Assembly (NCBI GenBank): GCA_015063135.1
Contig: SUTA01000002.1
Coordinates: 1 to 64,000 of the forward strand
Length of the DNA: 64,000 nt
Source: Thermoplasmata archaeon
GTDB taxonomy: Archaea > Thermoplasmatota > Thermoplasmata > Methanomassiliicoccales > Methanomethylophilaceae
Reading direction: 5' to 3'
Part shown: positions 1 through 64,000 of the stretch, piece after piece
Position numbering within the stretch: position 1 is the stretch's first letter
Layout of the letters: every line of letters starts with the position of its first letter
Notes under the pieces: model-generated
What the model saw: the letters and a program-made list of their open reading frames with translations, nothing else
What the model was told of the DNA's origin: nothing
The model's database searches: none
Position numbers and translations under genes: made by a program

Positions 1-110
1 ATGTCATGCGGGCCAGGGCCCGCATGACCGACGCCGCGGAGGCGGTACAGATGGTCAGAATCCTGAACATCTACAAGGAGTGCAGAATCTCAGCCAGGGG
101 GTCTGATCGA
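1..110 (+). CDS. 3' end of an unidentified gene (partial)
   Basis: The frame that starts at base 3 reads as a natural protein tail (about 35 residues, including RARMTDAAEAVQMVRILNIY) and then meets CGA at 108-110. After this the same frame becomes shadow-like and stays open to 854, overlapping the next gene on another frame. The helical tail has no motif I can name. The CGA end fits the stop-codon pattern seen throughout the window. The upstream part lies outside the window. Confidence 0.45.
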
Positions 111-171
111 ATTACCGAACACAGTTCCCAGGGTGGAAAACGGTTATATCGGTCGTTGAGAGTCTCGGTGC

Positions 172-1062
172 ATGGACCTCCGTCTGAGGACGTACCTGCT
201 ATTGGCGATATCCGTGCCTACACTGATGTCAATAATGGCCATCAGGATGTCCCTGGACTTCAATTTCGACGAGGTCAAGTACTATATCCTGATATGGTAC
301 GCCTGCCTCGTGCCGATCTACCTCCTCCTCTACGGGTTCCTGTTCGGGGAGGGGTACAGGCTGTTCAAGAGGGACCCGGCCAAGACGGAGATACCCGAGC
401 TCCGCTTCGTATCCTCCAGGATATGCTTCTTCGCCATGGCGTCATGCATCCTGGTTCTCTACGCCGCATCGCTCTGGCTGGTCGGGAGGGACGAGTACGT
501 CTACCCGCTCTACCTCATAGCCCCGGTGATGCTGCTCTCGCTGGTATGCGTGCTCTTCAGGAAGAAGCGCCGCATCGGGGACCATCTGCCCTCCACGCAG
601 ATCGCCGCCGTGATCTTCGTGAGCATGATAGCCTTGGTCCCATCCTATCTCATCCAGAACCACGAGGAGCGCGCCGACGAGGTCGAGGTCCAGGTGGTCT
701 TCGACGTCGTCAACCTCCAGGCGCCCATGGTGGAGGGGCACTACAACCTGAACTTCATCAACGAGTTGTTCTACGTCGAGGTGTTCGATACGGGGTTCGC
801 CACGTTCGGCTACGAGTCCGACAGGATCCGCTCCGGGGTATGGATGTCCTATGAGAATCCGTACTTCCTCGAGTTCACCCTCGCCGGTTACAAGTCGTGC
901 GATACGTACATTATAATAGTCGATACCGACGGCTCGGCGGTGGTCTTCAACCAGGAGACCGAGTTGGAAACCAAGGCGCTGTACGACAGGCTGGCCGCCA
1001 TCCACGGTGACGACCCGGCCGACGAACCGGACGAGCACCCCGACGAATTGGCCACCCTGCGA
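172..1062 (+). CDS. multi-pass membrane protein with soluble C-terminal domain
   Basis: Unrecognised 296-residue protein. It has about four or five hydrophobic segments within residues 1-165 (for example around 8-25, 35-58, 85-105, 112-130 and 145-163). A soluble region follows, ending in an acidic tail rich in Asp, Glu and Pro. A TTATAT element about 25 bp upstream supports the ATG at 172. The protein ends at CGA 1060-1062. Beyond that the frame is open to 1368, but the translation turns Arg/His-rich and overlaps the PPOx gene by 240 bases in another frame, so the extension is not credible. There is no CGA inside the 296 codons. Confidence 0.6.
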
Positions 1063-1126
1063 GCCCCTGGCTGCGCCACTCCGCCCACCGATACCGTTTT
1101 CTATCTTCCATGCGGATTCCGGCGGC

Positions 1127-3111: not shown

Positions 3112-3114
3112 TTG

Positions 3115-6978: not shown

Positions 6979-7581
6979 ATGCGCTACTTCGTGATCACCG
7001 GCCACAGGGCCTACACCACGGGCAACTTCAAGCTCGACGATATAGCCGGCGGCGCCGGCAGGCTGGACATACTCGTCCGCTGCGTCAACTCCGCGTTCTT
7101 CCTCAGCCACAACCTCAGGAAGGACGTCGAGGCATACCTCGTCCTGGAGGGCGGGGAGGACGCGCCCAAGACGGTGATATTCAGGGGCGAGGAGCTCAGG
7201 TACCTCAACCCCGACGAGAGGAGCACGGCGTCGCTGATCAGGAACGCCCTCATGAAGCAGGTCGGGAAGGACCAGGAGGTCAGGGCCTCCCCCGGGGTTT
7301 ATGTGACCCGGATGTCCTTCGCCGACGTCATATCCAAGCTTGCCGGCCTCGGGAGCTTCGTCTACCTCAAGGAGGACGGCATAGACTGCAGGGAATACGA
7401 GTTCCCGCAGAATCCAATCTTCGTCCTGGGGGATAACCAGGACCTTACCGAGGCGGAGGAGGAACTCCTCGTCTCGCACGATCCGGACAGGATCAACATC
7501 GGGCCAAGGAGCCTGCATGCGGACCACTGCATGATCATCGTGCACAACGAGGCGGACCGCAGGGAAGCGGAGGAGCGATAA
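6979..7581 (+). CDS. trmY: tRNA pseudouridine(54) N1-methyltransferase
   Basis: A 200-residue SPOUT methyltransferase of the archaeal TrmY family. It makes N1-methylpseudouridine at position 54 of the tRNA T-loop from S-adenosylmethionine. Signature features are the N-terminal MRYFVITGHRAYTTGNFKLDD and the cofactor-knot strand FVLGDNQDLTE near residues 147-157. It lies 4 bases behind srp54 and 1 base ahead of the zinc-ribbon gene. The last sense codon before TAA is CGA (7576-7578). If CGA is a stop here, this is a tandem stop and the protein has 199 residues. Confidence 0.93.
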   Translation: MRYFVITGHRAYTTGNFKLDDIAGGAGRLDILVRCVNSAFFLSHNLRKDVEAYLVLEGGEDAPKTVIFRGEELRYLNPDERSTASLIRNALMKQVGKDQEVRASPGVYVTRMSFADVISKLAGLGSFVYLKEDGIDCREYEFPQNPIFVLGDNQDLTEAEEELLVSHDPDRINIGPRSLHADHCMIIVHNEADRREAEER

Positions 7582-7582: not shown

Positions 7583-7786
7583 ATGGCAGAGTTCACGGAG
7601 AAGATACCCCAGCACAGGCACTGCGCCGGATGCGGGAAGGCGTTCGTCGGAGATGGAAGGTTCTGCAGCGAAGGCTGCCAGGCCGAATCCGCCAAAGAGG
7701 TCAAGGGCAAGCTGAAGAAGCTCGTCCTCATCTGGGTGGCCATCGTCGTGGTAACGGTCGTCCTCGTGGTGGCAGTCGGGTTATGA
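7583..7786 (+). CDS. zinc-ribbon single-pass membrane protein (DUF2116-like)
   Basis: A 67-residue protein with two CxxC-like pairs (CAGCGKAF and CSEGCQ, about residues 14-34) that probably bind one zinc ion, then a basic linker (KGKLKK) and a C-terminal membrane helix of 20 hydrophobic residues. This matches the small DUF2116 family common in archaea; its role is unknown. It ends in TGA overlapped by the next ATG (TTATGA), so it is translationally coupled to the CoaD fusion gene. Confidence 0.75.
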   Translation: MAEFTEKIPQHRHCAGCGKAFVGDGRFCSEGCQAESAKEVKGKLKKLVLIWVAIVVVTVVLVVAVGL

Positions 7787-8724
7787 AGGTAGCCGCAGTA
7801 GCAGGCACTTTCAACGTCATCCACGATGGCCACAGGGCGCTGCTCCGCGAGGCGTTCTCCCGCGGGGACAGGGTGCTCGTCGGCATAACGTCCGACGCCA
7901 TGGCGGCCGAGGGCAGGGCGGAGTACGTCCCGCTTTCCATCAGGGAACCCGCCCTCAGGAGGGAGCTTGACGGGATGGGCGAGTACGACATCTACGTCAT
8001 CGACGATCTTTACGGCCCCCCAGAGATGGATTCGGTCGACGTCCTCGTGGTCTCGGAGGAGACCAGGGGCAATGCCGAGCTGATCAACGAGAGCAGGATA
8101 TCCAGGGGCGTACCGCCGTTGGAGATAGATTGCATCCCGCTCCTCATGGGCGATTCCGGGAAGATCTCGGCATCCGATATCCTCCGCGGCGATTACGGCT
8201 CGTCGGGGAGGAGGGACGTCCTCGACGTCGCGGTGGGTTCAGCCAACAGGGTCAAGGTCGAGGCCGTCAGGTCCGTTCTTGCGAGGATCTACGGCGATGT
8301 CCGCGTCACGCCCATGGACGTCCCCTCAGGGGTCCCCCCGCAGCCTTTCGAATCCGATGTGCGCCGGGGGTCCGAGAACCGCGCCAGGGCGGCACTCCCC
8401 GGCCATGACATGGCCGTCGGCATAGAGGCCGGCGTCTTCGAGATGGAGGGCGGCCTCTACGACATACAGCATTGCACGATAATTGACCGCGATGGGAAGC
8501 TCACGCACGGCCAAGGCTCCGGGTTCAGGTACCCCGATGCGGTGGCCGACCTCGTCAGGAAGGGAATGACCGTGGGCGAGGCCATGCGCGAGGTCTACGG
8601 CGAATCTAACATCGGCAAGGGGAGGGGCGCCATCGGCCTACTGAGCAAAGGCCTCCTGGACCGCAAGACCCTCACCGAGCAGGCGGTCATCGCGGCCATG
8701 ATACCGCGCATCTGGGATGAGCGA
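7783..8724 (+). CDS. fused phosphopantetheine adenylyltransferase and inosine/xanthosine triphosphatase
   Basis: 313 residues in two domains. Residues 1-145 are an archaeal CoaD-type nucleotidyltransferase (GTFNVIHDGHRALL with the HxGH motif, and ISASDILRG near the end), which converts phosphopantetheine and ATP to dephospho-CoA. Residues 148-313 are a DUF84/YjjX-like house-cleaning NTPase (VGSANRVKVEAVRSVL at the start, ending AVIAAMIPRIWDE), which hydrolyses ITP/XTP. The family C-terminus coincides with CGA 8722-8724. The frame stays open to 9060 but is then only a shadow of the FAD oxidase. The next gene starts inside this overlap. Confidence 0.85.
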
Positions 8725-10258: not shown

Positions 10259-11031
10259 GGTTCCTCGTCGCGGTCAAGCAGGTCCCCGACACCGGCAGGA
10301 TGTCGATAGATGCGGACGGCAATCTTGTCAGGAGCGGCTCTGCCGGGATGCTCGACCCGTACTGCGAGTCCGCCCTGCTGAGCGCCCTGTCCCTCCGCAC
10401 CGAGGGCGATACGGTGGAGGTGTTCACCATGGGCCCTCCCCAGGCTTCCACGACTCTCAGGAGGTGCCTGGAGATCGGGGCCGACGCTGCATACCTGATC
10501 TCCGACAGGGCCCTCGCCGGGTCCGACACATGGGCCACGTCCAGGGCCTTGGAGGCGTTCCTCTCCCGCTACGGCTGCGATGCTGCCCTGGTCATATTCG
10601 GGAGGCAGACCATAGACGGGGGGACCGGCCAGGTGCCGTTCCAGACCGCGAGGCTCCTGGACGTCCAGCAGTTCGCATATGTGGATTCCGTCAGGAGGGA
10701 GGGAGAGGGTTTCGTAGCGGTGCAATCGTACGACGGCCTCACGCGCACAGCCAAGGTGCCCTTAGGCTCCGTCGTCTCCTTCGGGGGCATCGACCTCAGG
10801 GGGGCCATCCCGACCCTCCAGGGCCATCTGGATGCCCAGCGGAAGGAGATCGTCGAGGTCGACCGCGTGAAGCTCGGCCTCGGGCTGTATTCCGTGGGGA
10901 TCAAGGGCTCCCCTACGAGGATCGTAAGGACCCAGCCCAACGCCCCCGAGAGGAAGAACAGGATGGTCATGATCAACAACCCGGCCACCGCCGCCGACCT
11001 GCTCAGGCAGGAGATGGAGGGATTGAGATGA
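10255..11031 (+). CDS. etfB: electron transfer flavoprotein beta subunit
   Basis: A 258-residue EtfB/FixA protein that starts MRFLVAVKQVPDT and has the typical nucleotide-binding core (SALSLRTEGDTVEVFTMGP, VIFGRQTIDGGTGQVPFQTA). It forms a heterodimer with EtfA and carries FAD or AMP. Here it presumably takes or supplies electrons for the oxidase encoded just upstream. It is joined to both neighbours by ATGA overlaps. Whether it bifurcates electrons cannot be judged by eye. TGA stop. Confidence 0.92.
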   Translation: MRFLVAVKQVPDTGRMSIDADGNLVRSGSAGMLDPYCESALLSALSLRTEGDTVEVFTMGPPQASTTLRRCLEIGADAAYLISDRALAGSDTWATSRALEAFLSRYGCDAALVIFGRQTIDGGTGQVPFQTARLLDVQQFAYVDSVRREGEGFVAVQSYDGLTRTAKVPLGSVVSFGGIDLRGAIPTLQGHLDAQRKEIVEVDRVKLGLGLYSVGIKGSPTRIVRTQPNAPERKNRMVMINNPATAADLLRQEMEGLR

Positions 11032-12077
11032 GCGGCTGCTCCGGAGGTTCCTGCTCCACATGCGGCGGAGGGGAGCCGGATCCCGACAGGCTGCCGCCCG
11101 GCATGCTCAAGAGGTACGACCTCAACCAGTCCACCGCCGACGGGACGCTCGTCTGGGCCGAGGTGAAGGACGGCGAGATATGCAGGCCGTCGCTCGAGAT
11201 GGTATCATACGCTTCGGAGAAAGGTGAGGGGCGCGTATTCGCCGTTGTGTTCGGCGGCCCTGAGCTCAAATCCTGCTACCCCGCTCTCTTCGGCCATGGG
11301 GCCAACACAATCTATCATGTCCGCGGCGAAGGCACGGAGAGGTACGACCCCGAGGCCTATTCCGAGTGCCTCGCAGAGATCTCCGAGCGCGTCGTCCCGG
11401 CATCGATACTGATCGCCGCCACCGACCGCGGCAGGGAGGTCGCGCCGCGCCTCGCAGCGGCCCTAGAGACCGGCCTGACCGCGGACTGCACCCAGATCGA
11501 GTTCGACGGCAGGAGGATGGTCATGACCCGCCCCGCGTTCAGCGGGAACCTCATGGCCGAGATAGAATGCACCAAGTTCCCGCAGATGGCCACCGTCAGG
11601 CCGGGCGCGCTCCCGCTCGGGAAGCCCGTCGAGCGCACCGGCACAGCGATCTACTGGCAGTACTCGAAGGGCCCGGTCAAGGACATCGTTAGCGATGACG
11701 TCCCGGAGGCCGTGGATATCGACATCTCAGAAGCCAGGGTCCTGATATCCCTCGGCGGAGGCATCCGCGATGCCGAGACCGTGGAGATGGCCTACGAGGT
11801 GGCCGAGAGGATGGGCGCCCAGGTGTCCTGCTCCAGGGCCCTCGCCGACAGGGGCCTCATGCCGAGGACGCGCCAGGTCGGACTGTCCGGTCGCACCGTA
11901 GCCCCGGACCTGTACATCGCCATGGGCGTATCCGGCAGCGTGCAGCATATGGCCGGATGCAGGAACTCTAAGAGGATCATAGCCGTGAACACAGACAGGG
12001 ACGCCCCCATCCACGGCTATGCGGACCTCAGCCTGATATGCGATGCCAAGCAGGTCCTGAGCAAGCTGCTCGAGCGA
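11028..12077 (+). CDS. etfA: electron transfer flavoprotein alpha subunit with Cys-rich N-terminus
   Basis: A 349-residue EtfA/FixB. The C-terminal FAD-binding signature VAPDLYIAMGVSGSVQHMAG (about residues 290-309) and the DAPIHGYADLS segment are intact. The first 20 residues (CSGGSCSTCGGG) carry four cysteines, an extension that could bind a metal or iron-sulfur centre. The protein ends at CGA 12075-12077 after LSKLLE, a normal EtfA C-terminus. The frame is otherwise open to 12260, running antisense through bcp. It converges with bcp on the palindrome CGATCG. Confidence 0.9.
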
Positions 12078-12545
12078 TCGGGACTTCGCGAGCTTGACTG
12101 CCATGTCCAGGACCTTCTGGACGTGGCCGGCGACCTTGACGTTGCGCCAGACGAACTCCACGGTGCCGTCCTTTCCGACGATGAACGTGGACCTGATGGT
12201 GCCGACAGTCTCCTTGCCGTAGGACACCTTGGTGCCCCAGGCTCCGACCTGCTCCATTAGCGTGTGCTCGGGATCGCTGAGCAGCTTGACCTTCAGCTGG
12301 TGCTTGTCAGCGAAGTTCCTGTGGGATTTCACGGAATCCTTGCTGACCCCGATGACCGGGATGTTGCGCATCATGAAGTTGGGGAAGGCGTCGGTGAAGT
12401 CCTTGGCCTCCGTGGTGCAGCCGGCGGTGTTGTCCTTCGGGTAGAAGTAGATGACGTACCTGATGCCCTCGAGCTGCCTGCTGTCGAACTCCTCTCCGTT
12501 CTCGTCCTGAAGGACGAATGCCGGGAACCTATCTCCTTTGTCCAT
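12078..12545 (-). CDS. bcp: peroxiredoxin, Bcp/PrxQ type
   Basis: 155 residues. A thioredoxin-fold peroxidase that reduces H2O2 or organic peroxides through the peroxidatic Cys in YPKDNTAGCTTEAKDF (about residue 44). The usual Bcp resolving Cys five residues later is replaced (CTTEAK), so it looks 1-Cys. ATG 12545 has a good ribosome site (GAGGAG, 5 bases upstream). The frame continues upstream without a conventional stop into pheT, broken only by CGA 12557-12555. It ends at CGA (12080-12078 on minus) after LAKS, although the frame stays open to 11727. Confidence 0.9.
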
Positions 12546-12554: not shown

Positions 12555-14210
12555 TCGGAAAAGCGTGTCCTTGCGCTCGGACAGGATGGTCGCGAGGTCC
12601 AGCTCCATGAATATGATGGGATGGGTGATCTCGTATCCCACTACGACCGATGGCGCGACCTCGCCGAATATGCCGATCCTCCTGCCGCCGGAGACCACGT
12701 AGGCGCCCCTGCCGGCCACGAAGGTCGGGAGGTCGCAGGCCTCCAGCGTGTAATCGACGCCGAGCTCCCTGAGCACGGATTCGGTGATAGATTTGATCGA
12801 GGTGAAGGATGTCGCCGCGGCGGTCTCCATGGCGCACAGGTGGGGGACGACCTTGGTGTCCCTGATGACGTTGCCGACCTCGAAGATCCTCTGGGGGAGT
12901 CCCCTGTGCTTGTTGTGCCTGAGGATGCGCACGAGGCTGGGCATGAGGTAGGCGCGGAGGCAGGTGTGGTCCTCGGTGATCGGGTTGAGGACGCGGACGG
13001 TGTCGACCTCCGGGAGCCCGGAGAGCTCGAACTCGTCCCTCTGGTTGCTGAGCGTGAGGGTGGTGACCTCCGTGAACCCGAGGCCCAGGAGGACATCCCT
13101 GATGCCGTCGCTGAACGTGGTGATCTGGTCCAGGCCTCCCGCGGTCTGCTCCAGCTTGTAGGGGCCTCCGAAGCGGTCGAAGCCGTAGCCGGTGGCGACG
13201 TCCTCGAAGATGTCCACCTTGTGCATGATGTCGAGCCTGGTGCAGGGGTACCTGACGCGGATGGTGTCGCCGTTCGCGGTGGCGTCCATGCCCATCCTCC
13301 TGAGGCAGTCGACGGCGCCCTGGGGCCCGAGGCTGATGCCGAGGAACCTGTCGCACTCCTTCGAGGAGATGGAGATCTCGGTGGGGGAGAGGTCCGGGGA
13401 TGTGAAGTTGATGGGGCCGTCGTGCATCCTGACGGTCATGATCCTCCCGCCGCGCTCCGCCAGGGAGGTGGCTACGATGTCCAGGGCGCCCTTCACGGCC
13501 TTCCTGTCGTAACCGGTGACGTCGATGAACAGGTTCTTGGTAGAGGTGGTGACCGTGGTCAGCGCCCCGTTGATGATCGGTGGGAACGAGAGGACCTCGC
13601 CGTTGGCGTCGAGGATGATGGGGTACCTGTCGAACCCCTCGAGCAGATGGGCGTAGTCGCGGCCCTTCTCGTGCTTGGCGAGGATCTCCTCCATGTCCAT
13701 CTCCTCGGTCTTGGCGAGGGGGACGAATCTGATGGAGTGGGGGTCCACGGCCTTGTACGTGAACGGGGGGGTGACCTTGTCCAGGTCGTGGATGCCTATC
13801 GCGAGCTTGCTCCTCTTCCTGCCTATCGTGATGTGGAGCTTCTCCTGCATCTCCATGATGGACCTGAGCATGTTGTCGTCGATGTCTACTCCTAGGACCA
13901 CGCCGCACAGGAAGTACGGGCGGACGTCCTTGACGGACCCGTCGATGTACACGTCGGCGTCGTAGGAGCCGACATCGTAGGTCTTCATGCCGGGCTCGAT
14001 GTCCAAAAAGGCCCTCATGCCCCTGGCGACGCCCTCGACGCTGTAGAGGTCGGGGCGGTCCGGGAAGAATTCCACGGACATCTCGTCGGTGCCCTCCTCG
14101 GTGTCGCCCATATCGGCGCCGATCATCGGGATGCGCTCTACAAGCGTCTCCTGCGGGACGTCCCCTAGCATCGTGCGGAGGTCGCTGTACTTGAAGTTTA
14201 TGACAGGCAT
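12555..14210 (-). CDS. pheT: phenylalanyl-tRNA synthetase beta subunit
   Basis: A 551-residue archaeal/eukaryote-type PheT, which pairs with PheS (not in the window) to charge tRNA-Phe. It has the archaeal N-terminus MPVINFKYSDLRTMLG, B3/B4-like editing and B5 regions, and a C-terminal catalytic-like core with RIFEVGNVI and a THPEV-like end (ITHPIIFMELDLATIL). The conserved end is followed within a few residues by CGA (12557-12555) and then the bcp ribosome site. Under the standard code PheT and Bcp would be one 700-residue fusion. All 551 codons were read and none is CGA. Confidence 0.95.
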
Positions 14211-14248: not shown

Positions 14249-15403
14249 TCGGCGCCCGAGCGCCGCGTGCGCGGAGCCGAGCTGGCCTGCGGCCTGGGCG
14301 GCGAGAGTGGAGAGCTCTCCGGCGAGAACCGTGGCACAGACGATCTCCGCCAGCTTGCGGGCCTTACCCTCGCCGAGGCAGTCTATCATGGCCAGAGCCT
14401 CCCTCTGGCAGGGCAGGCGGGTGCCCCCTCCGACGGTCCCGACCTCCACCGTGGGCATGCGGACGCATATGTACAGGTCCCCATCGAGGTCCTCGCATGT
14501 TGTCATGGCCATGCTGCCTCCGACGACCTGCGCGGGGTCCTGCCCGGTGGCTATGAAGACGGCCGCGACCATGTTGGCGGCATGGGCGTTGGCGCCCAGC
14601 GTGCCGGCCATGCTCGATCCGACCAGGTTCTTCCTGTAGTTGGTCTCGACGATCGCGGATGCGGTGGCGTGGAGCTTCCCCTCGACGATGTCCTTGGGTA
14701 TCCTCGCCTCGGCGACGGCGGTCTTGCCCCTGCCGTTGATCATGTTCATGGCGGCGGGCTTCTTGTCGGAGCACATGTTCCCGGACACCGAGACCATCAC
14801 GGCACCGGTCTCCTTCTCCAGCAGCCTGCAAACGGCCTCCGATGCGATGGTGGCCATGTTCATGCCCATGGCATCGCCGGTCTCGAAGAGGAACCGCAGG
14901 TGCAGGCTCCTGCCGTTGGGGTACTTGTCTATGCGGTGGAGCTTCCCGTGGCTGGTGGTGGACGCTACGGCCGCCTGAATCTCGTCGGGGTGGGAATCTA
15001 TCCACTGGCACACCTTCTCGGAGTGCTCTATCCCCTCGACCCTGAGCACGGGTGCGCGGGTCATGTAATCGCCGTACACGGCGGTCCTCGCACCGCCGCC
15101 GGCGTTGATCACCGACATGCCGCGGGAGATGGATGCGACGAGGGCGCCCTCGGTCGTGGCCAGCGGGACGAGGTACTCCCCGTCCGCGTAGGAGCCCTTT
15201 ATCCTGACGGGGCCGGCGTATCCCAGGGGGATCTGGACGGTGCCGATCATGTTCTCGATGTTCTTGGAGGCTCCCTCCGGGTCGATAGCGTACCTGGAAA
15301 CCGTGTCCAGGGACACCCCGGTGAACTTCTCCGCCGCCTCGCGGCGGTCCTCGACATCTTCGCGCGAATACCCGCGGTTCTTCAGACCGGCCTTCTCCGC
15401 CAT
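14249..15403 (-). CDS. hmgA: 3-hydroxy-3-methylglutaryl-CoA reductase, class I
   Basis: A 384-residue NADPH-dependent HMG-CoA reductase. It makes mevalonate for archaeal isoprenoid ether lipids. Motifs: catalytic Glu in TTEGALVASISRG (about 84-96), ETGDAMGMNM, SGNMCSDKKPAAMN with the catalytic Lys, and the Asp of GQDPAQ. The protein ends GSAHAALGR, as expected for the family, then CGA at 14251-14249. Under the standard code it would add 17 residues encoded by the pheT promoter and start. TATTATAA on plus 15426-15433 is its TATA box. Confidence 0.95.
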
Positions 15404-29758: not shown

Positions 29759-29763
29759 TCGAT

Positions 29764-32170: not shown

Positions 32171-32228
32171 GTGATGGTGCCCGCCGATGCAACAGATTAT
32201 GAACATCCACCGGCATCCTACCTCGCAT

Positions 32229-46304: not shown

Positions 46305-46898
46305 TCGATAGTCCGAGAGCCTGCCGTAGTCGTCCCACTGGCCGTACATGTTCCCCTTGCGCGTCTCGGCTAGGAAGTGCTCCAGGGCCTTCTCGTATGA
46401 TACGGGATCGACGGCCTTGATGTTGGCCAGGTTGAACGCCCTGACGCGCCTGTAGAGCGGCGGGAACGACTGGAACCTGGTCCAGAGGCGGTGCTTCTTG
46501 AGGGCGGCCTCCAGCTCCGGGTCGATGCGGAAGCTGCGGGGGCCCATGGCCGGGAGCACCCTCCTGCCGGCATCTGTCATCAGGCCCAGCTTCTCCAGCC
46601 TGCGGACCCTCTCCTTGTTCAGCTCCGACCAGACGCCACCCTTCCTCCTGGGGGAGAACCTCTGGGCGCGGACGCCGCCGATGAGCGCGTGGGTGCTGTC
46701 GATCCACCCGAAGCACAGCGCCTCCTCCACCGCATCGATGTACCAGAACGTGCCCTCACCCTCGGGTCTGCCCTTCTTCACGGCCACCCAGCACTCTTCC
46801 GCCGTGGCGTGGTTCTCCTGGAGCCATGCCCTGAACTGGAGCCTGTCGGCGACATCGAGTAAGCAAGATCCTCTCGACTTGTCCTCTTCCGGTTCCAT
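46305..46898 (-). CDS. YdeI/OmpD-associated family protein
   Basis: 197 residues, matching the family's usual length. Typical segments: FRAWLQENHATAEECWVAVKKG, TFWYIDAVEEALCFGWIDSTH (about 52-72), RFSPRRKGGVWSELNKERV, and the C-terminal DUF1801/YdeI-type region ending YGRLSDY. The biochemical role is not established. It ends at CGA (46307-46305). The exonuclease promoter follows directly, and the same frame continues through it into the exonuclease, so under the standard code one 424-residue hybrid would be predicted. Confidence 0.8.
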
Positions 46899-48885: not shown

Positions 48886-49635
48886 ATGGAGTACAAATCT
48901 GTGTTCAAGAGGTACGAGCTGAAGTACCTGATGGACGAGGACCAGGCGGCGGCCGTGAGGGAATCCCTGATGGAGCACATGGCCCCCGACCGCTACGACC
49001 ACAGCGTCATCAGGAACGTCTACCTGGACACGCCGGACTTCCTCCTGGCGAGGCGCTCCATAGAGCGCCCGCTCTACAAGGAGAAGCTGAGGTTCCGCGC
49101 GTACAGCAGGCCCTCCGAGGATGACGACGTGTTCGTCGAGCTGAAGAAGAAGAGCAACTCGGTCGTCTACAAGAGGCGCCTCACGATGCCGTTGGGCGAG
49201 GCGGAGGCATGGTTCTCCGGCCTCGGGGAGGCCCCGTCCGGCCAGATAGCCGAGGAGATCGACTTCATGAGGGTCCGCTACCCCGGGATAGCCCCGGCAA
49301 TGTTCCTGTCCTACAGCAGGGACGCCTACTGCGCCAGGGGAAGCGGCGATCTGAGGATTACAGTCGACAGCGACATCCGCGCCCGCACCGAGGACCTGGA
49401 CCTCTCGTCCGAGGTGTACGGCCGCGAGGTCCTGCCGGCGGGCTACACGCTCCTGGAGATCAAGACCATGTACGGATACCCGTTCTGGCTCCTGGAGCTG
49501 CTGAACTCCCAGCACCTGTACAAGTCCAGCTTCACGAAGTACGGCAATGCGTACAAGGAGATCGTCCTGGGGAAGGTCCCGGAAGAGTTCCTTCCCATCC
49601 GCACCAGATCGGCCGTGCCGATGGAGGTGGAGCGA
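48886..49635 (+). CDS. VTC-domain protein (polyphosphate polymerase-like)
   Basis: A 249-residue tunnel-fold triphosphate enzyme related to the Vtc4 catalytic domain. Features: FKRYELKYLMDEDQA at the start, RNVYLDTPDF, KEKLRFRAYS, VFVELKKKSN (tunnel Lys/Arg/Glu) and TLLEIKT with catalytic Glu near 198. Vtc4 makes polyphosphate from ATP; the activity here is inferred. It ends PMEVE at CGA 49633-49635, whose A is the first base of the next ATG (CGATG). A TGA lies seven codons farther on. Confidence 0.82.
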
Positions 49636-51512
49636 TGTCCTCCTCCACCACGGCACTGATAGCGATACTGCTCGCGGCCGCCATCGGCGGAGGCGCCATC
49701 GCATGCGTGGCGACCGGCATGTTCGACACCCAGACCGCCGACGACTCCGAGACGGTCGTCCCGGACGTCCCCCAGCAGGAGGACCAGGAAGAGGAGGCCC
49801 CCTCCTCGGACCCCGAGGAGGACACCGATCCCGTGACCGAGCCCGAAGAACAATCCGAAAGCGTATCCGGGCTGACCATCACATGCGTGTCCGGGACGGA
49901 TGGATGCTACACCATCACCCAGAGCTCCTCCACCGGGGAGTACACCCTGACCTTCGCGAACGTATCCGAGGACACCGAGTACAAGCTATCCGGCACCCTC
50001 AGCGGATGCATCGTCATCAATGCCGGTGACGACTACGACTTCAAGCTGAGCCTGAGCGGCGTCAGCATAACCAGCTCCTACAGCGCGCCGATAGTGTGCA
50101 CCTCTGCGAACAACCTGACCATCTCGGCGGCCAAGGGCACGGTGAACACCGTGACCGACAACCGCTCCGAGCAGACCGACTCCGATGCCATCAACGCCTC
50201 CATCTACTGCACCTGCGACCTGAAGGTCCAGGGCAACGGGGCCCTCACGGTGGTGTCGAAGAACAACAACGGGATACAGTCCAAGGACGACCTCAAAGTC
50301 AAGAACCTCACGCTGAGCGTCACCTGCGTCGACAACGCGCTCAAGGGCAACGACAGCGTCACCATCGAATCCGGGAACATCAGCCTGACAGCCACCTCCG
50401 GCGACGGCATAGTCACCACCAGCACCGACGTAAGCTCCAAGGGGATCCAGAGGGGCACGGTGACCATCAACTCCGACGAGGGCGACACCGTGCTCGTCAT
50501 CAACTCCTACTGCGACGGGATCGACGCCGCCTACGACGTCCTGATCGACGACACCGAGGGGAACAGCGTGACCGTCACCATAACCACCTATGCCGGAGCC
50601 ACCGCATCCGAGGTAGGCACCATCACTGATGCAGGATTCGGCCCAGGCAGTGCGCCGGGCAGCGGATGGGGCGGTAACCGTGGAGGCCCCAGCTTCAACC
50701 AGCCCGGGCCCGACAGCAACCCCAGCCCCAGCGTCTCGTTCTCCTGCAAGGGAATCAAGGCGGACAACTCCGTGACCATCGCCGGGGGCACCGTCACCGT
50801 GGCCTCCTACGACGACGCCGTCCACGCCAACGGCGATGTGCAGCTGGAGTCTGGATCCTACGGGTCGGGAAACGTGACCATCTCCGGAGGCACTGTGACC
50901 CTCTCCTCCTCGGACGATGCGATTCACGGCGACGGGGCCGTCAACATCAGCGGCGGCAACATGTCCATCTCGAAGTCATACGAGGGCATCGAGGGTTCGT
51001 CCGTTACCGTGAGCGACGGCAGCGTCTACATCAGGTCATCCGACGACGGCATCAACTCCAGCGGGACCATCACCCTCTCGGGAGGGTACGTGATGGTGTA
51101 CGCCGGCGGCGACGGGATCGACTCCAACTGCTCCACGAGGTACAAGGCCATCGTGTTCAGCGGAGCCGTCGTGGGAATCGTCAGCACGTCCGGAGGCAAC
51201 TCCGCCATCGACACCGACAGCGGGTACACCTTCAGTGGCGGAGAGGTGCTGGTCATCTGCCCCCAGGGCATGACCAACGAATGCCTCAACTGCAGCGGCG
51301 GCGTCAACAGCGTAGGGACCTACTCCACGGTCTCCGCCTCGTCCGGCTCCTACCTGACGGTGAAGTCCTCTTCGAAGTCGCTGATGGCCATCGAGATGCC
51401 CGTCTCTCTGAACAACGCGTTCGTCCTCTACCTCGGATCGAACTCCGCGTCGTTCTCGACCGCATCCTCCTCCAGCGGGCTCTCCGAGGTCGCCGAGAGG
51501 CTGTACGCCCGA
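49635..51512 (+). CDS. secreted carbohydrate-binding beta-helix protein (Cthe_2159-like)
   Basis: 625 residues. N-terminal membrane or signal helix (about 6-28), an acidic Asp/Glu/Gln/Pro stalk (to about 75), then Ser/Thr/Gly-rich repeats of right-handed beta-helix type (NGIQSKDDLKVKNLTLSV, DAIHGDGAVNISGGNMSISKSYEGIEGSS, DGINSSGTITLSGGYV). This is the polysaccharide-binding repeat pattern of DUF-type carbohydrate-binding proteins. It ends RLYA at CGA 51510-51512. A perfect hairpin with a T-rich tail follows 16 bases later, inside a frame that stays open to 51800. Confidence 0.78.
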
Positions 51513-52020: not shown

Positions 52021-52021
52021 C

Positions 52022-52498: not shown

Positions 52499-53629
52499 TC
52501 GGCTCTCCGCTTCTTTTTTGCGTACCCTGCCAATCACTTTGGGTCCGTACCTGCAGATGACTATGCACAGTATGAGCGTTGCGAATGCCACTATCGCCCT
52601 CTGCACCATGGTCATGTCCGTGGGGAACCAGCTCGTCGTAGGTATGACGAAGAACGGAGCGATGAGGATGGTCGCGATGAATCCGTGCAGGAGCAGGATC
52701 CCCATGCTGTGCTGGCTTGCGATCACTATCGGCTTGGACAGCATAGGAATCTTCGAGAAAAGCAAGGCCAGATAGAGGTAAACGACGAACATGCAGACCG
52801 CTTCTACAACATACGGGAACAGGGACCATACGCCGTACTCTCCGAACTCCAGATAATCGAACTTGACTCCCGGGGGGAATAGGAAGCTCAGGCCTACGCC
52901 CACGGCCAGGCATACAATCAGGGGGAGCCAGTATCTTCCCGACCTCCATTCGAAGGATTCGATCCTATCCAAAAGGTCGACCTTGGCCAGAGTAGCCCCT
53001 ATCAGCATGAAACATGCTGCTATGGGCGCCAGGTGGATCTGGAACGGCATCTTGACGTCCCAGAATATCATGATCAGCGCGGTCACACCCAGCAGCGCGG
53101 CGATGGCGACGGCTATCTTCCTGTAGTCCTCCATCACATAATTCGCAATAGTGTAGAAAATCAGGAACCCGCCCATCATGGTCCAGAGATAGTAGTAGCC
53201 GACAGATGTGCAGCATGCGGCATGGGTGGGATCCAGACCCGCTTTCACGAAGAGATCGTTCAGATTCATGGACTCTATGAACGCGTCGAAGATGTTCGAG
53301 ATGTCGGAGGACTGTCCCATCAGCGCCAGCCAGCAGTATGTTATTACGGGCAATGCGACAGAACAGATGACGAGCGCCACCAATAGCTGGAGGGCACGCT
53401 TCTTGATGTTATCCATTATGGTCCTGCCAGGCCTGTAGAAGTATCCAGACAGCAGGAAGAACACCATCAGGCCGAGGTACAGGATCTGCATAACGAGCGG
53501 TTTTGTCCTTCCCTCTTCGCTTCCGGTGTTGGCCAGCAGCACGATGTGCACCAAGACGACGAGGACTATGACGATGCCTTTCAAAGCATCGGGCGAAGCG
53601 TAACGCACATTGGCTGCTGGACCGTCCAT
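52499..53629 (-). CDS. acyltransferase family 3 membrane protein
   Basis: 376 residues with about ten membrane helices. The N-terminal DALKGIVIVLVVLVHIVLLA carries the conserved His of O-acyltransferases that modify surface glycans or lipids; FFLLSGYFYRPG and SQHSMGILLLHGF are further family signatures. I chose the ATG 53629. A longer frame start includes CGA a few codons upstream and is excluded under the inferred code; a CTCCTCC-type box also lies just before this ATG. It ends KKEAES at CGA (52501-52499); the frame is open to 52436. Confidence 0.8.
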
Positions 53630-54523: not shown

Positions 54524-54622
54524 TACCCATATTAATGCCGTGTCCGTCTTATCATCCCCGGTTCCGACCCATCCGGAACGGGTCCGATCATTACGGGTGG
54601 CTGTACTATACGTTTACTCCCT

Positions 54623-54634
54623 GGTGTATACACC
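54623..54634. promoter_or_regulatory. palindromic operator between SMR genes and regulator
   Basis: Perfect 12-bp palindrome GGTGTATACACC between the divergent SMR operon and the winged-helix gene. Its core overlaps a TATA-like sequence. It is the natural binding site for the adjacent regulator. Confidence 0.5.
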
Positions 54635-54688
54635 TTACAGCACCGTTTCCACTATCTGGTTTTTCTATCCGGTAGACGATTCCAACGC

Positions 54689-54958: not shown

Positions 54959-55036
54959 TGCTGAACTTTTCATTAATGCATCATCAGATACCTTCAAAAA
55001 AAACTGGCAGTATCTCTGAAACAGTGCGTGTTGCAC

Positions 55037-55720
55037 ATGTATTACAAGCACATCGAAAGTGGAACATTCATAAGCCGCCCCAACAGGTTCATCGCCAAGG
55101 TTGAGGTCGGAGGCCGCACGGAAACGGTCCATGTGAAGAACACCGGCCGCTGCAATGAGATTCTCGTTCCCGGGGCCAAAGTGATCCTGGCCGGTCCTTT
55201 CGAAGACAGGAAGACCGCTTACGACCTCATCGCGGCGTACAAGGGCAATCTGCTGATTAACATCGACTCCCAGGCCCCGAACAAGGCTTTCGGCGAGTAC
55301 ATCCTGAAATCCGGCTTCTTCGGGGAGCATCCCACAGTGCACCCGGAGCATACCCACGGGGATTCCAGGTTCGATTTCTACATAGAATCCGGGGAGAGGA
55401 GGATCTTCGTCGAGGTCAAGGGCGTGACCTTGGAATGCGACGGCCGCTGCAGATTCCCCGATGCCCCCACGGAAAGGGGCAGGAAACACATCAGGGGGCT
55501 AATGGAATGCGTGAGGGAGGGCTACGAGGCCTACGCGGCGTTCGTCGTCCAGATGCCGCACATGAGATCCTTCGCCCCGAATTACGCCACCGACCCCGAG
55601 TTCGGGGAGGCGCTGGAGGAGGCGGAGAAGGCCGGGGTCGGCATCCTGGTGCTGGGGTGCGATGTCGGCGTGGACTCCATGAGGATATCCTACGCCATCC
55701 CCCATGACTTCCAGCGCCGA
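55037..55720 (+). CDS. sfsA: SfsA family DNA/sugar-fermentation stimulation protein
   Basis: 227 residues. An N-terminal OB-like region (FISRPNRFIAKVEVGG...VHVKNTGRCNEILVPGAKV) and a C-terminal PD-(D/E)XK-like nuclease domain (DSRFDFYIE then RIFVEVKGVTLE). SfsA binds DNA; its cellular role is unsettled. I chose the ATG 55037. It ends AIPHDFQR at CGA 55718-55720, the normal family end; the frame is otherwise open to 56038. It converges with the ABC permease on CGATCG. Confidence 0.9.
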
Positions 55721-56476
55721 TCGGAACTTCCTCGTCTTCAGCAGGTAGTAGTTTATCAGGAAGAACGCCACCATGAAGCACACCATCACCAGAGCCGAGA
55801 CCCACTCGAAGTCGAGGTAATCCGGCAGGGCGGCCGACCTTATGGCCAGGCTGGAATGTGTGAGCGGGAGGCAGTACAATATGCCCTGGAAGACGGGGTC
55901 CAGGGAGGACACCGAGAAGAACGTGCCGCACAGGAAGGTCATCGGCAGGATGACCAGGCTGTTGAAGGTGGCCATGCTCTGATGGGATTTCGCCAGCATC
56001 GCGGCCATCAGCCCCAGCATGGAGAACGTCACGCATGACATTATCACCATGACGATGAGCAGCGGGTTCAGGGACAGCTCGGGGGCCAGGAAGAGCCCCA
56101 GGGCATACATTATGAAGCAGCTGATCAGTCCGCGGATCAATCCGAGGGTGCTCTTCCCCAGGATTATGGCGGTCAGGCTCAGCGGGCACAGCATCATCTC
56201 GTCGAAGCTCTTGTAGTACAGCCTCTGGACGTTCAGCCTGGTGGATGTAGATGCGAACGACGAGGACAGCGAAGACAGGGCGACGATACCAGGGATGACG
56301 AAGGCCACGTAGGACACGCCGATGTCGGTGGACCCGCTCCTGAGCCCGTAGCCGAAAGCTATAAGGTACAGGAGGGGCGTCATGACGCTCATCACCAGGA
56401 TGTTCAAGAAGTTGTGCTTCAGGAACATAATGTCGCCCCAGGCGACGTAATATGTCTGCAGCAGAACGTTGCTCAT
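55721..56476 (-). CDS. ABC-2 type exporter permease
   Basis: 251 residues with six membrane helices: MTPLLYLIAFGYGL, VSYVAFVIPGIVALSSLSSSF, the CPLSLTAIILGKSTLGLIRG loop, and a PMTFLCGTFFSVSSLDPVFQ segment typical of DrrB/ABC-2 proteins. It works with the ATPase upstream to export a drug, lipid or polysaccharide. It ends YLLKTRKF at CGA (55723-55721); the frame is open to 55499 as a shadow of sfsA. Its ATG overlaps the ATPase stop. Confidence 0.87.
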
Positions 56477-61223: not shown

Positions 61224-61299
61224 GCTGGATTAATCCCCCAACATGATTATAACCGCGGTACCGTTACCTGGTGTCATAATCCAGCAAGACTAGCTCGGC
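61219..61299 (+). promoter_or_regulatory. chlI promoter with nested inverted repeats
   Basis: Between cobN and chlI there is a TATA element ATTATAA (61246-61252). Two nested inverted repeats surround it: GCCGAGCT (61219-61226) with AGCTCGGC (61292-61299), and GCTGGATTA (61224-61232) with TAATCCAGC (61277-61285). They could form a long hairpin or operator controlling chelatase ATPase expression. Confidence 0.45.
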
Positions 61300-61309
61300 G
61301 GGTGAAAAG

Positions 61310-62335
61310 ATGGAGAAGACGCTGTTCCCATTCGTATCTATCGTAGGCCAGGAAGACATGAAGCTGGCACTGCTTCTGAACATAGTGGATCCCAGCATCG
61401 GAGGGGTCCTCGTCAAGGGCGAGAAGGGCACCGCCAAATCCACCACGGTGAGGTCCCTCAACCAGGTCCTCCCCGACGTGACCTCGGCCGACGGATGCCC
61501 GTTCAACTGCGACCCGTCCCGCCCGGACAGGCTCTGCCCCTACTGCGAGGGGAAGCTCTCCGCCGGCATCGACCTGAAGCCCGTAACCAGGAGGATGAGG
61601 GTCATCGAGCTCCCTCTGAGCGCCACCGAGGACCGCGTGGCCGGCACTTTGGACATAGAGCACGTGCTCAAGACAGGGGAGAAGAAGTTCGAGCCCGGCG
61701 TCCTCGCCCAGGCCAACGGGAACCTCCTGTACGTGGACGAGGTCAACCTCCTGGACGACCACATAGTCGACCTGCTCCTGGATTCCGCCGCCATGGGGGT
61801 CAACTACATCGAAAGGGAGGGCGTGTCGTTCTCCCACCCGTCCCGCTTCATCCTGGTGGGGACCATGAACCCGGAGGAGGGCGATCTGAGGCCGCAGCTC
61901 CTGGACAGGTTCGGCCTCTCCGTTGAAGTGCGCGGCGACCGCGACATGGAGCAGAGGATGGAGGTGGTCCGCAGGAGGATCGCCTTCGACTCGGACCCCG
62001 AAGGGTTCCTGAAGGCTCACAGGAAGGAGTCCGAAGAGCTCAAAGCCTCCCTGGAGAAGGCCCGCTCCATCCTGCCGGATGTCACATCCGATGACGGCGT
62101 CCTCAGGGGCATAGTGTCCGTCACCACCAGCTTCGGCATAGACGGCCACCGCGCAGACATCACGATGATGAAGGCCGCGAAGGCCAACGCGGCCCTCGAG
62201 GGGAGGAAGGCGGTCACGAAGGACGATGTCCGCAGGGTCGCCCCGCTGGTCCTCTCCCACCGCATCAGGAGGCGCCCCTTCGAGGAGGCCGCCTTCGACA
62301 CCGAGGAGCTCGAGAGATGCCTCCAATCGATGTGA
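61310..62335 (+). CDS. magnesium/cobalt chelatase ATPase subunit ChlI
   Basis: A 341-residue AAA+ protein. Walker A KGEKGTAKST (about 35), a CPFNCDP...LCPYCEG insert with four Cys (zinc-like, as in archaeal and CobS/ChlI proteins), Walker B LLYVDEVNLLDDH, sensor GTMNPEEG, and the arginine-finger region LLDRFGLSVEVRG. It energises CobN together with the ChlD-type subunit. TGA stop; overlaps the next gene by 19 bases. Confidence 0.92.
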   Translation: MEKTLFPFVSIVGQEDMKLALLLNIVDPSIGGVLVKGEKGTAKSTTVRSLNQVLPDVTSADGCPFNCDPSRPDRLCPYCEGKLSAGIDLKPVTRRMRVIELPLSATEDRVAGTLDIEHVLKTGEKKFEPGVLAQANGNLLYVDEVNLLDDHIVDLLLDSAAMGVNYIEREGVSFSHPSRFILVGTMNPEEGDLRPQLLDRFGLSVEVRGDRDMEQRMEVVRRRIAFDSDPEGFLKAHRKESEELKASLEKARSILPDVTSDDGVLRGIVSVTTSFGIDGHRADITMMKAAKANAALEGRKAVTKDDVRRVAPLVLSHRIRRRPFEEAAFDTEELERCLQSM

Positions 62336-64000
62336 GCTTCCCGTTCACGGCCGTCTACGGCATGGACGATGCCAAGCGCGCCATAGAGTGCGCCCTGGTG
62401 AACCCCAGGATCCGCACCGTCCTCATCAGGGGAGGCCCGGGGACGGCCAAGACCGTGCTCTCCAGGGCCATGGGAGGCATCTCCGGGAGAAGGATCGTCA
62501 ACATCCCGCTCAACGTGACCTATGACCAGCTCTTCGGCGGCATGGACATGGATTCCACCGTGCGCGTGGGGCGGGCGGTGGCCCAGAACGGGCTGCTTTC
62601 CCGCGCCGACGGGGGGATCGTCTACGTCGATGACATCAATCTGATGGACCAGGCCATGCTATCCGAGCTCCTGGACAGCGTCGTCTCGGGGCACGTCGTC
62701 CTCGAGAGGGAGGGGGTCTCGTCCGATTATTCGTTCGATTCCATCCTCGTGGCCACCATGAATCCCTCGGATTCGGACATCAGCCCGCACCTCCTGGACA
62801 GGTTCGACGTGTGCGCATATGCGATCCCCCCGGACGTGGAGGGGTCCCACGAGGAGATCCTAAGAAGGAACATCGCATTCTACGAGGACCCGGAGGGTTT
62901 CCGGGAGCTGTACTCCGAATCTGAGAAGGCCGAGCGTGAGAAGGTAGCTAGGGCCCGCAGGCTCCTGCCCCTGGTCCGGATATCCGACGACCTACTGGCC
63001 GTCGCGGTCGAGCTGACCGCGAAGGTCGGCGCGGATGGGTTCCGCGGGGACCTCGCCATGGTCAACGCCTCCATGGCCCTTGCCGCGCTCGACGGCAGGG
63101 ACGAGGTCGTAAAGAAGGATGTGGAGGAGGCCGCCATGATATGCCTGGCGCACCGCCGCAACCCGTTCCAGCAGCCTCCCCCCGCGCCGCCGCAGCCCCC
63201 AGAGGAGCAGGATGAGGGTGAAAGAGAGGAGCCCGACGACCCCCAGCGGGACGACGACACCCCGCAGAACGAGGACCCGCAGGATGGGGAAGACGGGGAG
63301 AGGGAACCGCCGCAGCCCCCGGACATGCAGGACTTCCAGCAGATGCTGGAGGACATGGTCTTCGAGATCGGGGAGCAGTTCAGGGTCATCGACTACCTGG
63401 CCGACGGGAATGTGAGGATCGCCCGCACGTCCAGCAGGAAGGGCCGCAGGGCCATGGCCGAGAGCTCGGACTCCACGGGCCGCTACTGCCGCAGCCGGAT
63501 CCCCGACGGGAAGACCCACGACCTGGCCTTCGATGCGACCATAAGGGCCGCGGCGCCGTATCAGCGCACCAGGGACCACGGCGGGCTGGCGATATCGATC
63601 CAGCCCCAAGACATCAGGGAGAAGGTCCGCGAGAGGCGCTCCGGATGCACCATACTGTTCCTGGTCGATGCCAGCGGGTCCCTCGGAGCGAGAAGGAGGA
63701 TGGCGGCGGTCAAGGGAGCCGTCCTCTCCATGCTCCGCGACAGCTACGTCAAGAGGGACAGGGTCGGGATGATGGCCTTCAGGAGGGACTCCGCCGAGCT
63801 CATACTCCCGCCGACCAGGTCCGTGGAGTACAGCTACAGGAAGCTGGAGGAGCTTCCGACCGGGGGGAAGACCCCGCTGTCCGACGCCCTGGTCACCGTG
63901 GGGGAGTTCATGACCTCCTACTCCCGCTCCCATCAGGGGGAGGCGTGCTACGTCGTCCTGATATCCGACGGGCGCGGGAACGTGACGTTCAGGGAGGGAT
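62317..64000 (+). CDS. chelatase subunit ChlD (AAA+ plus VWA), cut by the window end
   Basis: At least 561 residues, no stop before the window ends. An N-terminal AAA+ domain with Walker A GGPGTAKTVLS (about 33), Walker B IVYVDDINLMD and ATMNPSDSD, an acidic Pro-rich linker (about 285-335), then a von Willebrand A domain with the MIDAS motif LVDASGSLG (about 448) and VVLISDGRGN near the edge. It bridges ChlI and CobN. The start ATG 62317 lies within the end of chlI. Confidence 0.9.
   Translation, partial: MPPIDVSFPFTAVYGMDDAKRAIECALVNPRIRTVLIRGGPGTAKTVLSRAMGGISGRRIVNIPLNVTYDQLFGGMDMDSTVRVGRAVAQNGLLSRADGGIVYVDDINLMDQAMLSELLDSVVSGHVVLEREGVSSDYSFDSILVATMNPSDSDISPHLLDRFDVCAYAIPPDVEGSHEEILRRNIAFYEDPEGFRELYSESEKAEREKVARARRLLPLVRISDDLLAVAVELTAKVGADGFRGDLAMVNASMALAALDGRDEVVKKDVEEAAMICLAHRRNPFQQPPPAPPQPPEEQDEGEREEPDDPQRDDDTPQNEDPQDGEDGEREPPQPPDMQDFQQMLEDMVFEIGEQFRVIDYLADGNVRIARTSSRKGRRAMAESSDSTGRYCRSRIPDGKTHDLAFDATIRAAAPYQRTRDHGGLAISIQPQDIREKVRERRSGCTILFLVDASGSLGARRRMAAVKGAVLSMLRDSYVKRDRVGMMAFRRDSAELILPPTRSVEYSYRKLEELPTGGKTPLSDALVTVGEFMTSYSRSHQGEACYVVLISDGRGNVTFREG

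Follow-up and report, generated by a model that had tools for sequence, protein, structure and literature searches.

CGA encodes arginine in nearly all other organisms. The 64,000-nucleotide stretch of DNA analysed here (the window) raises the question of whether this codon instead ends proteins in its host, an uncultured gut-type methanogen of the Methanomethylophilaceae. Known changes of the cellular code make sense codons out of stops or, in a few cases, swap one amino acid for another. The source genome of the window, G000, is a MAG of 1.86 Mb, 87% complete and with a GC content of 61%. Its sequence points strongly to CGA being a stop codon beside TGA and TAA, with aRF1 as the probable reader, and CGA appears to close roughly as many genes as TGA. 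In close relatives of G000 the same change seems to be half made. A search limited to the open-access literature found no sense-to-stop change in a cellular genome, with CGA or any other codon.

The preliminary description of the window had placed 32 of 59 gene ends at an in-frame CGA. All ten of its example sites are in-frame CGA ends (last nucleotide at 1062, 8724, 12077, 36244, 45366, 51512, 55720 and 61223 on the plus strand, and at 14249 and 24850 on the minus strand). A mechanical choice of non-overlapping ORFs, which by design breaks at every CGA and takes in some spurious ORFs of low GC3, yielded 52 ORFs ending in CGA (29), TGA (16), TAG (4) or TAA (3). Genes of the window that end in CGA are listed in Table 1; their Pfam domains extend nearly to the CGA (for example to profile position 368/368 in HMG-CoA reductase and 1089/1090 in CobN).

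Table 1. Window genes that end at an in-frame CGA.
Gene or product	Position	Strand	Gene end
ORF, no Pfam family	172..1062	+	CGA 1060-1062; a standard stop comes 101 codons further on
RNA methyltransferase (Methyltrn_RNA_2)	6979..7578	+	CGA, TAA immediately after
CTP_transf_like + NTPase_I-T (DUF84)	7783..8724	+	CGA 8722-8724
EtfA (ETF, ETF_alpha)	11028..12077	+	CGA 12075-12077; palindrome CGATCG common with convergent gene
AhpC/TSA peroxiredoxin (Bcp-like)	12078..12545	-	CGA 12080-12078
PheT-like (tRNA_synthFbeta, B5, B3_4)	12555..14210	-	CGA; 275 codons open beyond
HMG-CoA reductase	14249..15403	-	CGA; Pfam match to profile position 368/368
Fe-ADH-type dehydrogenase	22213..23316	-	CGA
Ppx/GppA phosphatase	23316..24863	-	CGA, TGA immediately after
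Polyphosphate kinase	24850..26943	-	CGA; 500 codons open beyond, across next gene
TrkH transporter	29755..31311	+	CGA; palindrome CGATCG with next gene
TPR protein	31312..32139	-	CGA; 416 codons open beyond
AAA ATPase (AAA_21)	32187..33266	+	CGA
DUF4435 protein	33259..34110	+	CGA
DUF4442/4HBT protein	35813..36244	+	CGA; 333 codons open beyond
Zinc-ribbon protein	36246..36677	+	CGA
P-type ATPase	42838..45366	+	CGA 45364-45366; single frame with in-frame TAG 44017-44019
OmdA-type protein	46305..46898	-	CGA 46307-46305, at most one codon from where a G014 protein of 49% identity stops; RNase_T gene (46262-45651) next, same frame
VTC-domain protein	48886..49635	+	CGA
Cthe_2159-type protein	49635..51512	+	CGA 51510-51512
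Acyltransferase (Acyl_transf_3)	52499..53629	-	CGA
SfsA	55028..55720	+	CGA 55718-55720, within one codon of the TAA that ends its G014 homologue (65%)
ABC-2 membrane protein	55721..56476	-	CGA; meets the SfsA end in CGATCG
CobN/Mg chelatase, 1242 aa	57495..61223	+	CGA 61221-61223; no internal CGA

To lessen the bias from ORF calling, standard-code proteins of the complete sister genome G014 were aligned to 364 kb of G000. Of 153 raw matches, 90 were removed (63 below 40% identity, 26 that failed the position-3 test and one overlapping), leaving alignments in which codon position 3 changes fastest and the references are called genes. CGA is reached first at 29 of 58 gene ends and stands exactly at the G014 stop at 18 (binomial P = 5e-15, CGA background 0.026), with 27 CGAs lying at most two codons off. 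At the CGA-first ends the next standard stop follows 3 to 272 codons later. Homology supports the CGA stop in 10 of the 16 aligned stretches. Comparison with a sister genome, one of the checks that had been proposed, finds CGA at homologous gene ends and supports its role as a stop. Under a stricter filter, whose reference genes came from gene calling that treats CGA as a stop and could mask sites where the reference carries CGA, 45 homology-supported ends comprised 18 CGA, 26 standard stops and one neither. The earlier statement that TAG is not used was incomplete, as 4 of these 45 ends lie at TAG and the TAG inside the P-type ATPase gene is probably a sense codon.

On the interior of genes, the preliminary description had reported no CGA, and the same holds in alignments of G000: none of the 671 arginine codons among 11,354 aligned G000 codons is CGA under the stricter filter, which excluded 30 residues at the start and 3 at the end of each query. 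Reassignment to another amino acid would place CGA inside proteins opposite one kind of residue, and under this filter G000 shows no such internal CGA. The trinucleotide itself is not rare in the window (1681 on the plus strand), and its in-frame absence is therefore frame-specific. The looser comparison with standard-code G014 references left nine CGAs within alignments, five of them in a single alignment with a TAA in it as well and four close to N-terminal edges or to the last residue. Two other approaches were rejected. A coding-score scan of all in-frame CGAs with small training sets was too noisy (44 "internal" and 173 "terminal" in G000), since in GC-rich DNA shadow frames also receive coding scores. 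Homology counts made without the third-position filter, or with unfiltered six-frame references, were contaminated by shadow ORFs; one such unfiltered count gave 96 "internal" CGAs, with TGA, TAG and TAA within several of the same alignments.

The predicted loss of tRNA-Arg(UCG) is compatible with the tRNA repertoire. Of the 42 distinct anticodons of G014, 41 were found in G000, Arg-UCG being the one not recovered. Neither the Rfam model nor one trained on 18 sister tRNAs found this tRNA in G000, a MAG whose missing part, at 87% completeness, could hold the gene. The sister-built model gave a separate match in 27 of the 31 genus genomes, with 19 anticodons read in all and 19 of the 27 matches being its own input sequences or identical to one. 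Every one of the 17 genus genomes with a completeness of 90% or more shows such a match, with the anticodon read in 11 and the score alone as basis in 6. Like G000, the genomes G013, G016 and G017, each less than 90% complete, gave no separate match. A blastn search with a single tRNA was discarded: in 13 of 31 genomes it gave no strong match, and 9 of these were matched by the later model, because tRNA-Arg(UCG) has diverged (70% between G014 and G007, with the anticodon read in G007). In G000, G016 and G011 the hypE-side tRNA site has lost its synteny, which makes this site uninformative on tRNA loss.

The aRF1 gene of G000 itself ends in CGA (...RYKVS-CGA), and the 26 sister aRF1 genes read end in TGA (25) or TAA (1). 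Unusual residues had been predicted in the codon-recognition loops of aRF1, and two were found just after the NIKS loop, which reads codon base 1. K66N and N67H occur in G000 alone among 106 distinct aRF1s: all 103 other rows have K at residue 66, at residue 67 they have N (90 rows) or A (13), and the N-H pair is confined to G000. By the same criterion (a change in at most one other row, in a column with a majority above 50%), the only further G000-specific change is at residue 6. Both residues align to positions 69 and 70 of human eRF1, where the PDB eRF1 alignment is gapless, and the genus rows show no NIKS change common to the whole genus. At E 0.001 the eRF1_2 profile has only one match in the G000 genome, which does not point to a second release factor. 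Among the values computed by Lind et al. (PMC5681627) is an eRF1 penalty against CGA of about 6 kcal/mol; on removal of Arg68, which holds the NIKS loop, the penalty for C at the first position falls to 1-2. By analogy with that neighbouring human residue, we infer that K66N may loosen the loop. The single aRF1 of G000 would then read CGA through a NIKS loop that no longer discriminates against C at position 1, discrimination having been lost via K66N and N67H in an order already lacking Arg68. If no tRNA competes for the codon, a change from T to C at a TGA stop would be neutral, which would have let CGA take over roughly half of all stops.

Alternatively, CGA might be unassigned, with stalled ribosomes cleared by a Pelota/ABCE1-type rescue that ends the protein. 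The tRNA not found in G000 and the lone eRF1_2 match would suit such a scheme, but about half of the genes, including those for aRF1, PheT and CobN, would then end by rescue, and the unique aRF1 changes lie beside the very loop that reads base 1; we regard it as unlikely. Somewhat less probable still is C-to-U editing of mRNA that turns a terminal CGA into UGA, as might be suggested by orthologous CGA and TGA stops that differ by one C/T. However, a comparison of 145 CGA stops with 136 TGA stops revealed no strong motif in the flanking bases of the former. T stands at position +4 in 63/145 CGA versus 40/136 TGA stops, and A just before the stop in 8/145 versus 42/136, an excess before TGA that is taken to reflect ATGA start-stop overlaps, which are forced to keep T. 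Moreover, editing leaves the aRF1 changes unexplained. That CGA is simply arginine and the proteins are extended C-terminally would preserve the standard code, and the sisters do retain tRNA-Arg(UCG) and must read through aRF1 codon 78, but the 18 exact ends, the frames that continue into neighbouring genes and the absence of CGA from 671 arginine codons make this hardly credible. An artefact of sequencing or assembly that writes CGA for TGA is just as implausible: G000 is a single MAG, but the TGATCA motif shows no depletion in G000, at 40.7 per 100 kb against 37.9 in G014, which led us to reject an error via this motif, CGA ends are spread over 10 of 16 stretches, CGA-for-TGA swaps also occur in assemblies of other species, and the tRNA and aRF1 differ independently.

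Beyond what the window alone can reveal, the sister species already avoid CGA inside genes and carry CGA in their own aRF1 gene. In samples of 20 kb around aRF1, codon 78 is CGA in 26 of the 27 genus genomes read, G000 being the exception, and among 2718 columns only this and one other show a conserved rare codon. All 25 internal CGAs in sisters lie at this codon (83,387 codons, stricter filter); in G014 it is the single internal CGA in 12,986 codons. Other internal CGAs number 0 versus 4,905 arginine codons in sisters and 5 versus 600 in family outgroups (Fisher 1.5e-5); one in G021 (residue 448 of 454, 57% identity), seen in a looser pass, was lost under the stricter filter. CGA is rare in the family anyway, with none internal in G032, G033 and G034 (references likewise called with CGA as stop), and its absence alone therefore proves little. 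A second in-frame site lies at the GmhA-GmhB junction, which has CGA in 17 of 25 and TAG in G000 and G020; in 3 it has TAA, and GmhB lies in a different frame. Some orthologous stops have CGA for TGA, for example CGA in G021 versus TGA in G008 within nearly identical surroundings. CGA ends amount to 15/260 in other genus members versus 0/35 in outgroups, a difference that is not significant (Fisher 0.23).

These patterns suggest that CGA in the sisters may be a leaky stop read by aRF1, with CGA78 possibly serving a prfB-like self-regulation, although the sisters' aRF1 has the ordinary K66 and N67, which would not account for leakiness. A +1 frameshift in sister aRF1 is not needed, as the same frame runs on past CGA78. 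The aRF1 tree, drawn open, places G000 as sister to all others (support 88/86), so that loss of CGA78 in G000 and its gain in the others are both possible. We give even odds to a genus-wide double meaning, a leaky aRF1 stop and arginine at a few programmed sites, from which G000 would have moved to a full stop. The sisters would then combine leaky CGA with a weak, fast-changing tRNA-Arg(UCG) retained for those sites. CGA78, a probable autoregulatory site, would have been kept and let the release factor sense its own activity, and CGA at GmhA-GmhB would give a short and a fused protein. G000 would have loosened its NIKS loop and lost the tRNA, with an aRF1 lacking CGA78 and TAG at the GmhA-GmhB fusion. 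If true, this would be a cellular sense-to-stop change seen midway, together with an archaeal counterpart of prfB autoregulation.

AGA and AGG are stops in vertebrate mitochondria. Other organellar cases include UUA/UUG in pedinophyte mitochondria and UUA and UCA in pedinoflagellate plastids (PMC12574857). As these cases are described, they resemble G000 in that the former sense codon is confined to gene ends, the cognate tRNA is absent (in G000, not found) and the codon-reading part of the release factor is changed; G000 differs in being a cellular archaeal genome with a single aRF1 rather than RF1/RF2 types, and in having C at position 1. The reassignments reported with Codetta include CGA/CGG to Trp, CGG to Gln or Trp and AGG to Met (PMC8629427). 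There, too, a CGN codon had become rare, and tRNA-Arg(UCG) is missing in three Firmicutes clades, but those codons gain an amino acid, the CGA/CGG ones in low-GC bacteria, whereas in our archaeon CGA would become a stop. Since Codetta picks among 20 amino acids, it could miss a stop. The aRF1 gene of the sisters shares with bacterial prfB (RF2), as its autoregulation is outlined in PMC12421855, a conserved in-frame codon that its product would read as a stop; it differs in the archaeal factor, in CGA rather than UGA and in same-frame read-through rather than a +1 frameshift, the case for the sisters being drawn from sequence. Pyrrolysine use is described in Methanomassiliicoccales (PMC4153887), the same order, and G000 has PylS and a TAG within a gene, but that change makes TAG a sense codon, the opposite direction to CGA. 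The two changes are possibly linked, as G000 has TAG where 17 sisters have CGA at GmhA-GmhB.

Standard-code gene calling would give about half of the G000 genes false C-terminal extensions. If the reading of CGA as a stop is true, a major stop codon derived from a sense codon in a cellular genome would show that cellular stops need not begin with U, contrary to what is assumed, and would reveal the release factor contacts that enforce U at the first position. The order would then hold a series in which CGA goes from an ordinary arginine codon, in three genomes of other families, to a rare codon, a leaky stop and finally a full stop, opening a change of the genetic code to stepwise study.

According to the preliminary description, CGA appears to be a translation stop codon in this archaeon, and the ten gene ends cited there as examples were all in-frame CGA ends on re-reading. 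When 52 non-overlapping ORFs of the window were chosen mechanically, 29 ended in CGA, 16 in TGA, 4 in TAG, and 3 in TAA. Since circularity was to be avoided, standard-code proteins of G014, a complete genome of a sister species, were compared with 364 kb of G000, the MAG holding the window, and alignments were kept if codon position 3 was the fastest-changing (63 of 153 matches). The first stop met at 58 gene ends was CGA in 29, TGA in 28, and TAA in 1. Of these 29 CGA ends, 18 coincided exactly with the G014 stop and 27 lay at most two codons from it; reading on past CGA, a standard stop came 3 to 272 codons later. CGA ends occurred in 10 of the 16 aligned stretches. With a stricter filter, whose references were genes called with CGA as a stop, 45 ends comprised 18 CGA, 26 standard stops (21 TGA, 4 TAG, 1 TAA), and 1 of neither kind. 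No internal CGA was found under this filter among 671 arginine codons (11,354 aligned codons of G000, after trimming 30 residues from the start and 3 from the end of every query). The looser filter, with the standard-code G014 references, gave nine CGA codons within G000 alignments: five in a single alignment also holding TAA, the rest close to N-terminal edges or on the final residue. An arginine reading of CGA, with C-terminal extensions, is excluded in practice by these internal counts and by the ends defined through G014 homology.

Several local features accompany these data (Table). The palindrome CGATCG is common to both genes of three convergent pairs, and therefore both end in CGA, back to back. 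An in-frame TAG within a P-type ATPase may encode pyrrolysine or have another sense reading, because PylS was found in the G000 genome.

Table. Positions of features in the window and at other loci
Feature	Location	Position	Strand	Remark
CGATCG palindrome	window	12075-12080		convergent pair
CGATCG palindrome	window	31309-31314		convergent pair
CGATCG palindrome	window	55718-55723		convergent pair
CGA-TAA	window	7576-7581	+	tandem-stop-like, standard stop at once after CGA
CGA-TGA	window	23318-23313	-	tandem-stop-like, standard stop at once after CGA
ORF(s)	window	16932-17972		third-position GC 0.49-0.74 (both regions) vs ~0.9; probably acquired DNA
ORF(s)	window	51860-55489		as preceding row
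In-frame TAG	window	44017-44019		P-type ATPase; halves match different Pfam domains, one frame
tRNA-Pro(UGG), two near-identical	G000, locus L038	2150-2225 and 3852-3925		one scores low (33 bits), 5' end changed
SIS-HAD fused frame	G014, locus L323	13496-14536	-
SIS-HAD fused frame	G000, locus L388

G014 has 42 distinct anticodons, of which Rfam plus ARAGORN recovered 41 in G000 (1.86 Mb in 40 contigs; completeness 87.5%, contamination 0.05%), and the sole one not found in this MAG was Arg-UCG, as the preliminary description had anticipated. A second model, built from 18 sister tRNA-Arg(UCG) sequences, was run on 31 genomes of the genus (single-contig: G014, G007, and G030). It gave a match distinct from tRNA-Arg(GCG) in 27, and in all 17 genomes at least 90% complete; no distinct match was found in G000, G013, G016, or G017. 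Eighteen of the 27 had supplied the model sequences, and that of a nineteenth, G014, is identical to that of G015; the anticodon was read in 19 and the other 8 were assigned by score. This tRNA evolves far faster than the other arginine tRNAs of the genus (70% between G014 and G007 vs 88-100%; alignment A1, loci L251 and L358), and most species have a form some two bases shorter around the D-loop.

Unusual residues near the codon-recognition site of aRF1, the single archaeal release factor, had also been predicted. The database entries most similar to the aRF1 of G000 are named Candidatus Methanomethylophilaceae archaeon, which marks G000 as a methanogen of the order Methanomassiliicoccales. 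Among 106 distinct aRF1s, we searched for residues of G000 shared with at most one other row in columns with a majority residue. Three emerged (6, 66, and 67), of which the last two directly follow NIKSKTTM. Residue 66 is N in G000 and K in 103/103 other rows; residue 67 is H in G000, N in 90 rows, and A in 13. A gapless alignment to human eRF1 places M-N-H of G000 over R68-L69-S70. In human numbering, position 68 is M or N in the order rows inspected and position 69 is K in all but G000, whose aRF1 has no basic residue at either. Excerpts of a computational study of human eRF1 give a penalty near 6 kcal/mol for first-position C, CGA included, which stems largely from Lys63 and the rigid NIKS loop and drops to 1-2 upon loss of Arg68 (PMC5681627). 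We infer that K69 substitutes for Arg68, and propose that the aRF1 of G000 would recognise CGA as a stop. The G000 aRF1 gene itself ends in CGA; 26 sister aRF1 genes end in TGA (25) or TAA (1).

Alternatives were weighed against CGA as a stop (ALTERNATIVES). Stalling at CGA followed by rescue is possible but unlikely, and it leaves the aRF1 changes unexplained. C-to-U editing of the terminal CGA in the mRNA is improbable, as flanking-base differences are limited to more T at +4 (63/145 CGA stops vs 40/136 TGA stops) and fewer A just before the stop (8/145 vs 42/136), the latter probably reflecting ATGA overlaps, which are obliged to keep T. A sequencing or assembly artefact writing CGA for TGA is hardly credible, given that TGATCA is not depleted and that the same CGA/TGA swaps occur in other species.

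Some sisters, sampled mostly over 20 kb flanking aRF1 in each genome, have CGA in place of TGA at orthologous stops. CGA ends numbered 15/260 in other genus members, 1/42 in G014, and 0/35 in outgroups, the excess of other genus members over outgroups not being significant alone (Fisher 0.23). Clear cases are an acetyltransferase (G000, G011, G021, G027) and two genes that we take to be kinase-like (G000, G001, G009, G027) and pseudouridine-synthase-like (G001, G026).

Inside genes of other genus members, 83,387 aligned codons held 25 CGA codons, each of them at aRF1 codon 78; the reference genes here, as in looser versions that agree, had been predicted with CGA treated as a stop. The one internal CGA of G014 (12,986 codons) is at the same codon. 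A further one in G021 (residue 448 of 454, 57% identity) was removed by the stricter filter. Internal CGA against arginine codons numbered 5 vs 600 in family outgroups and 22 vs 169 in order outgroups. Of the 27 genus genomes read, 26 carry CGA at codon 78, and G000, the exception, has CGC. The preceding codon ends in T in 25/25 sisters read (GCT or TCT), despite Ala/Ser alternation, and the following codon is CTN. Among 2718 columns, one other holds a conserved rare codon. Outside the genus, CGA also occupies codon 78 in seven further members of the order, without the NCT context. The aRF1 tree, drawn open, places G000 as sister to all other genus members (88/86).

A frame fusing SIS and HAD domains, which we take to be GmhA-GmhB, offers a natural read-through series in its junction codons. 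Of 25 genomes, 17 have CGA at the junction, G000 and G020 have TAG, G010 has AAG, and G006 has AGA; in G005 a CGA lies one codon before this position. G003, G011, and G012 have TAA there, and their second part lies in a different reading frame. Read-through of the junction CGA is likely in nine of the 17, because the seven codons past it contain no ATG, GTG, or TTG; in the other eight a GTG is available, from which the second part could start. In G005 and G010, CGA also stands at the Arg position of a DRD motif a few codons past the junction, so it can be read there as Arg or as a stop.

Sense-to-stop changes exist in organelles (PMC12574857, in excerpt), and the Codetta survey describes changes of arginine codons to amino acids (PMC8629427, likewise). 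Our searches of the open-access literature showed no report of a cellular CGA stop, which does not prove that none exists.

Because CGA78 is conserved in the sisters, our analysis suggests that their aRF1 may limit its own synthesis through this codon. The proposed control resembles that of bacterial RF2, a release factor limiting its own synthesis, whose loss of the autoregulatory site is tied to high use of its stop in the excerpts of PMC12421855; those of PMC13245932 report no significant such correlation in phylogenetically informed analyses. Unlike in RF2, control of the sister aRF1 would go by read-through.
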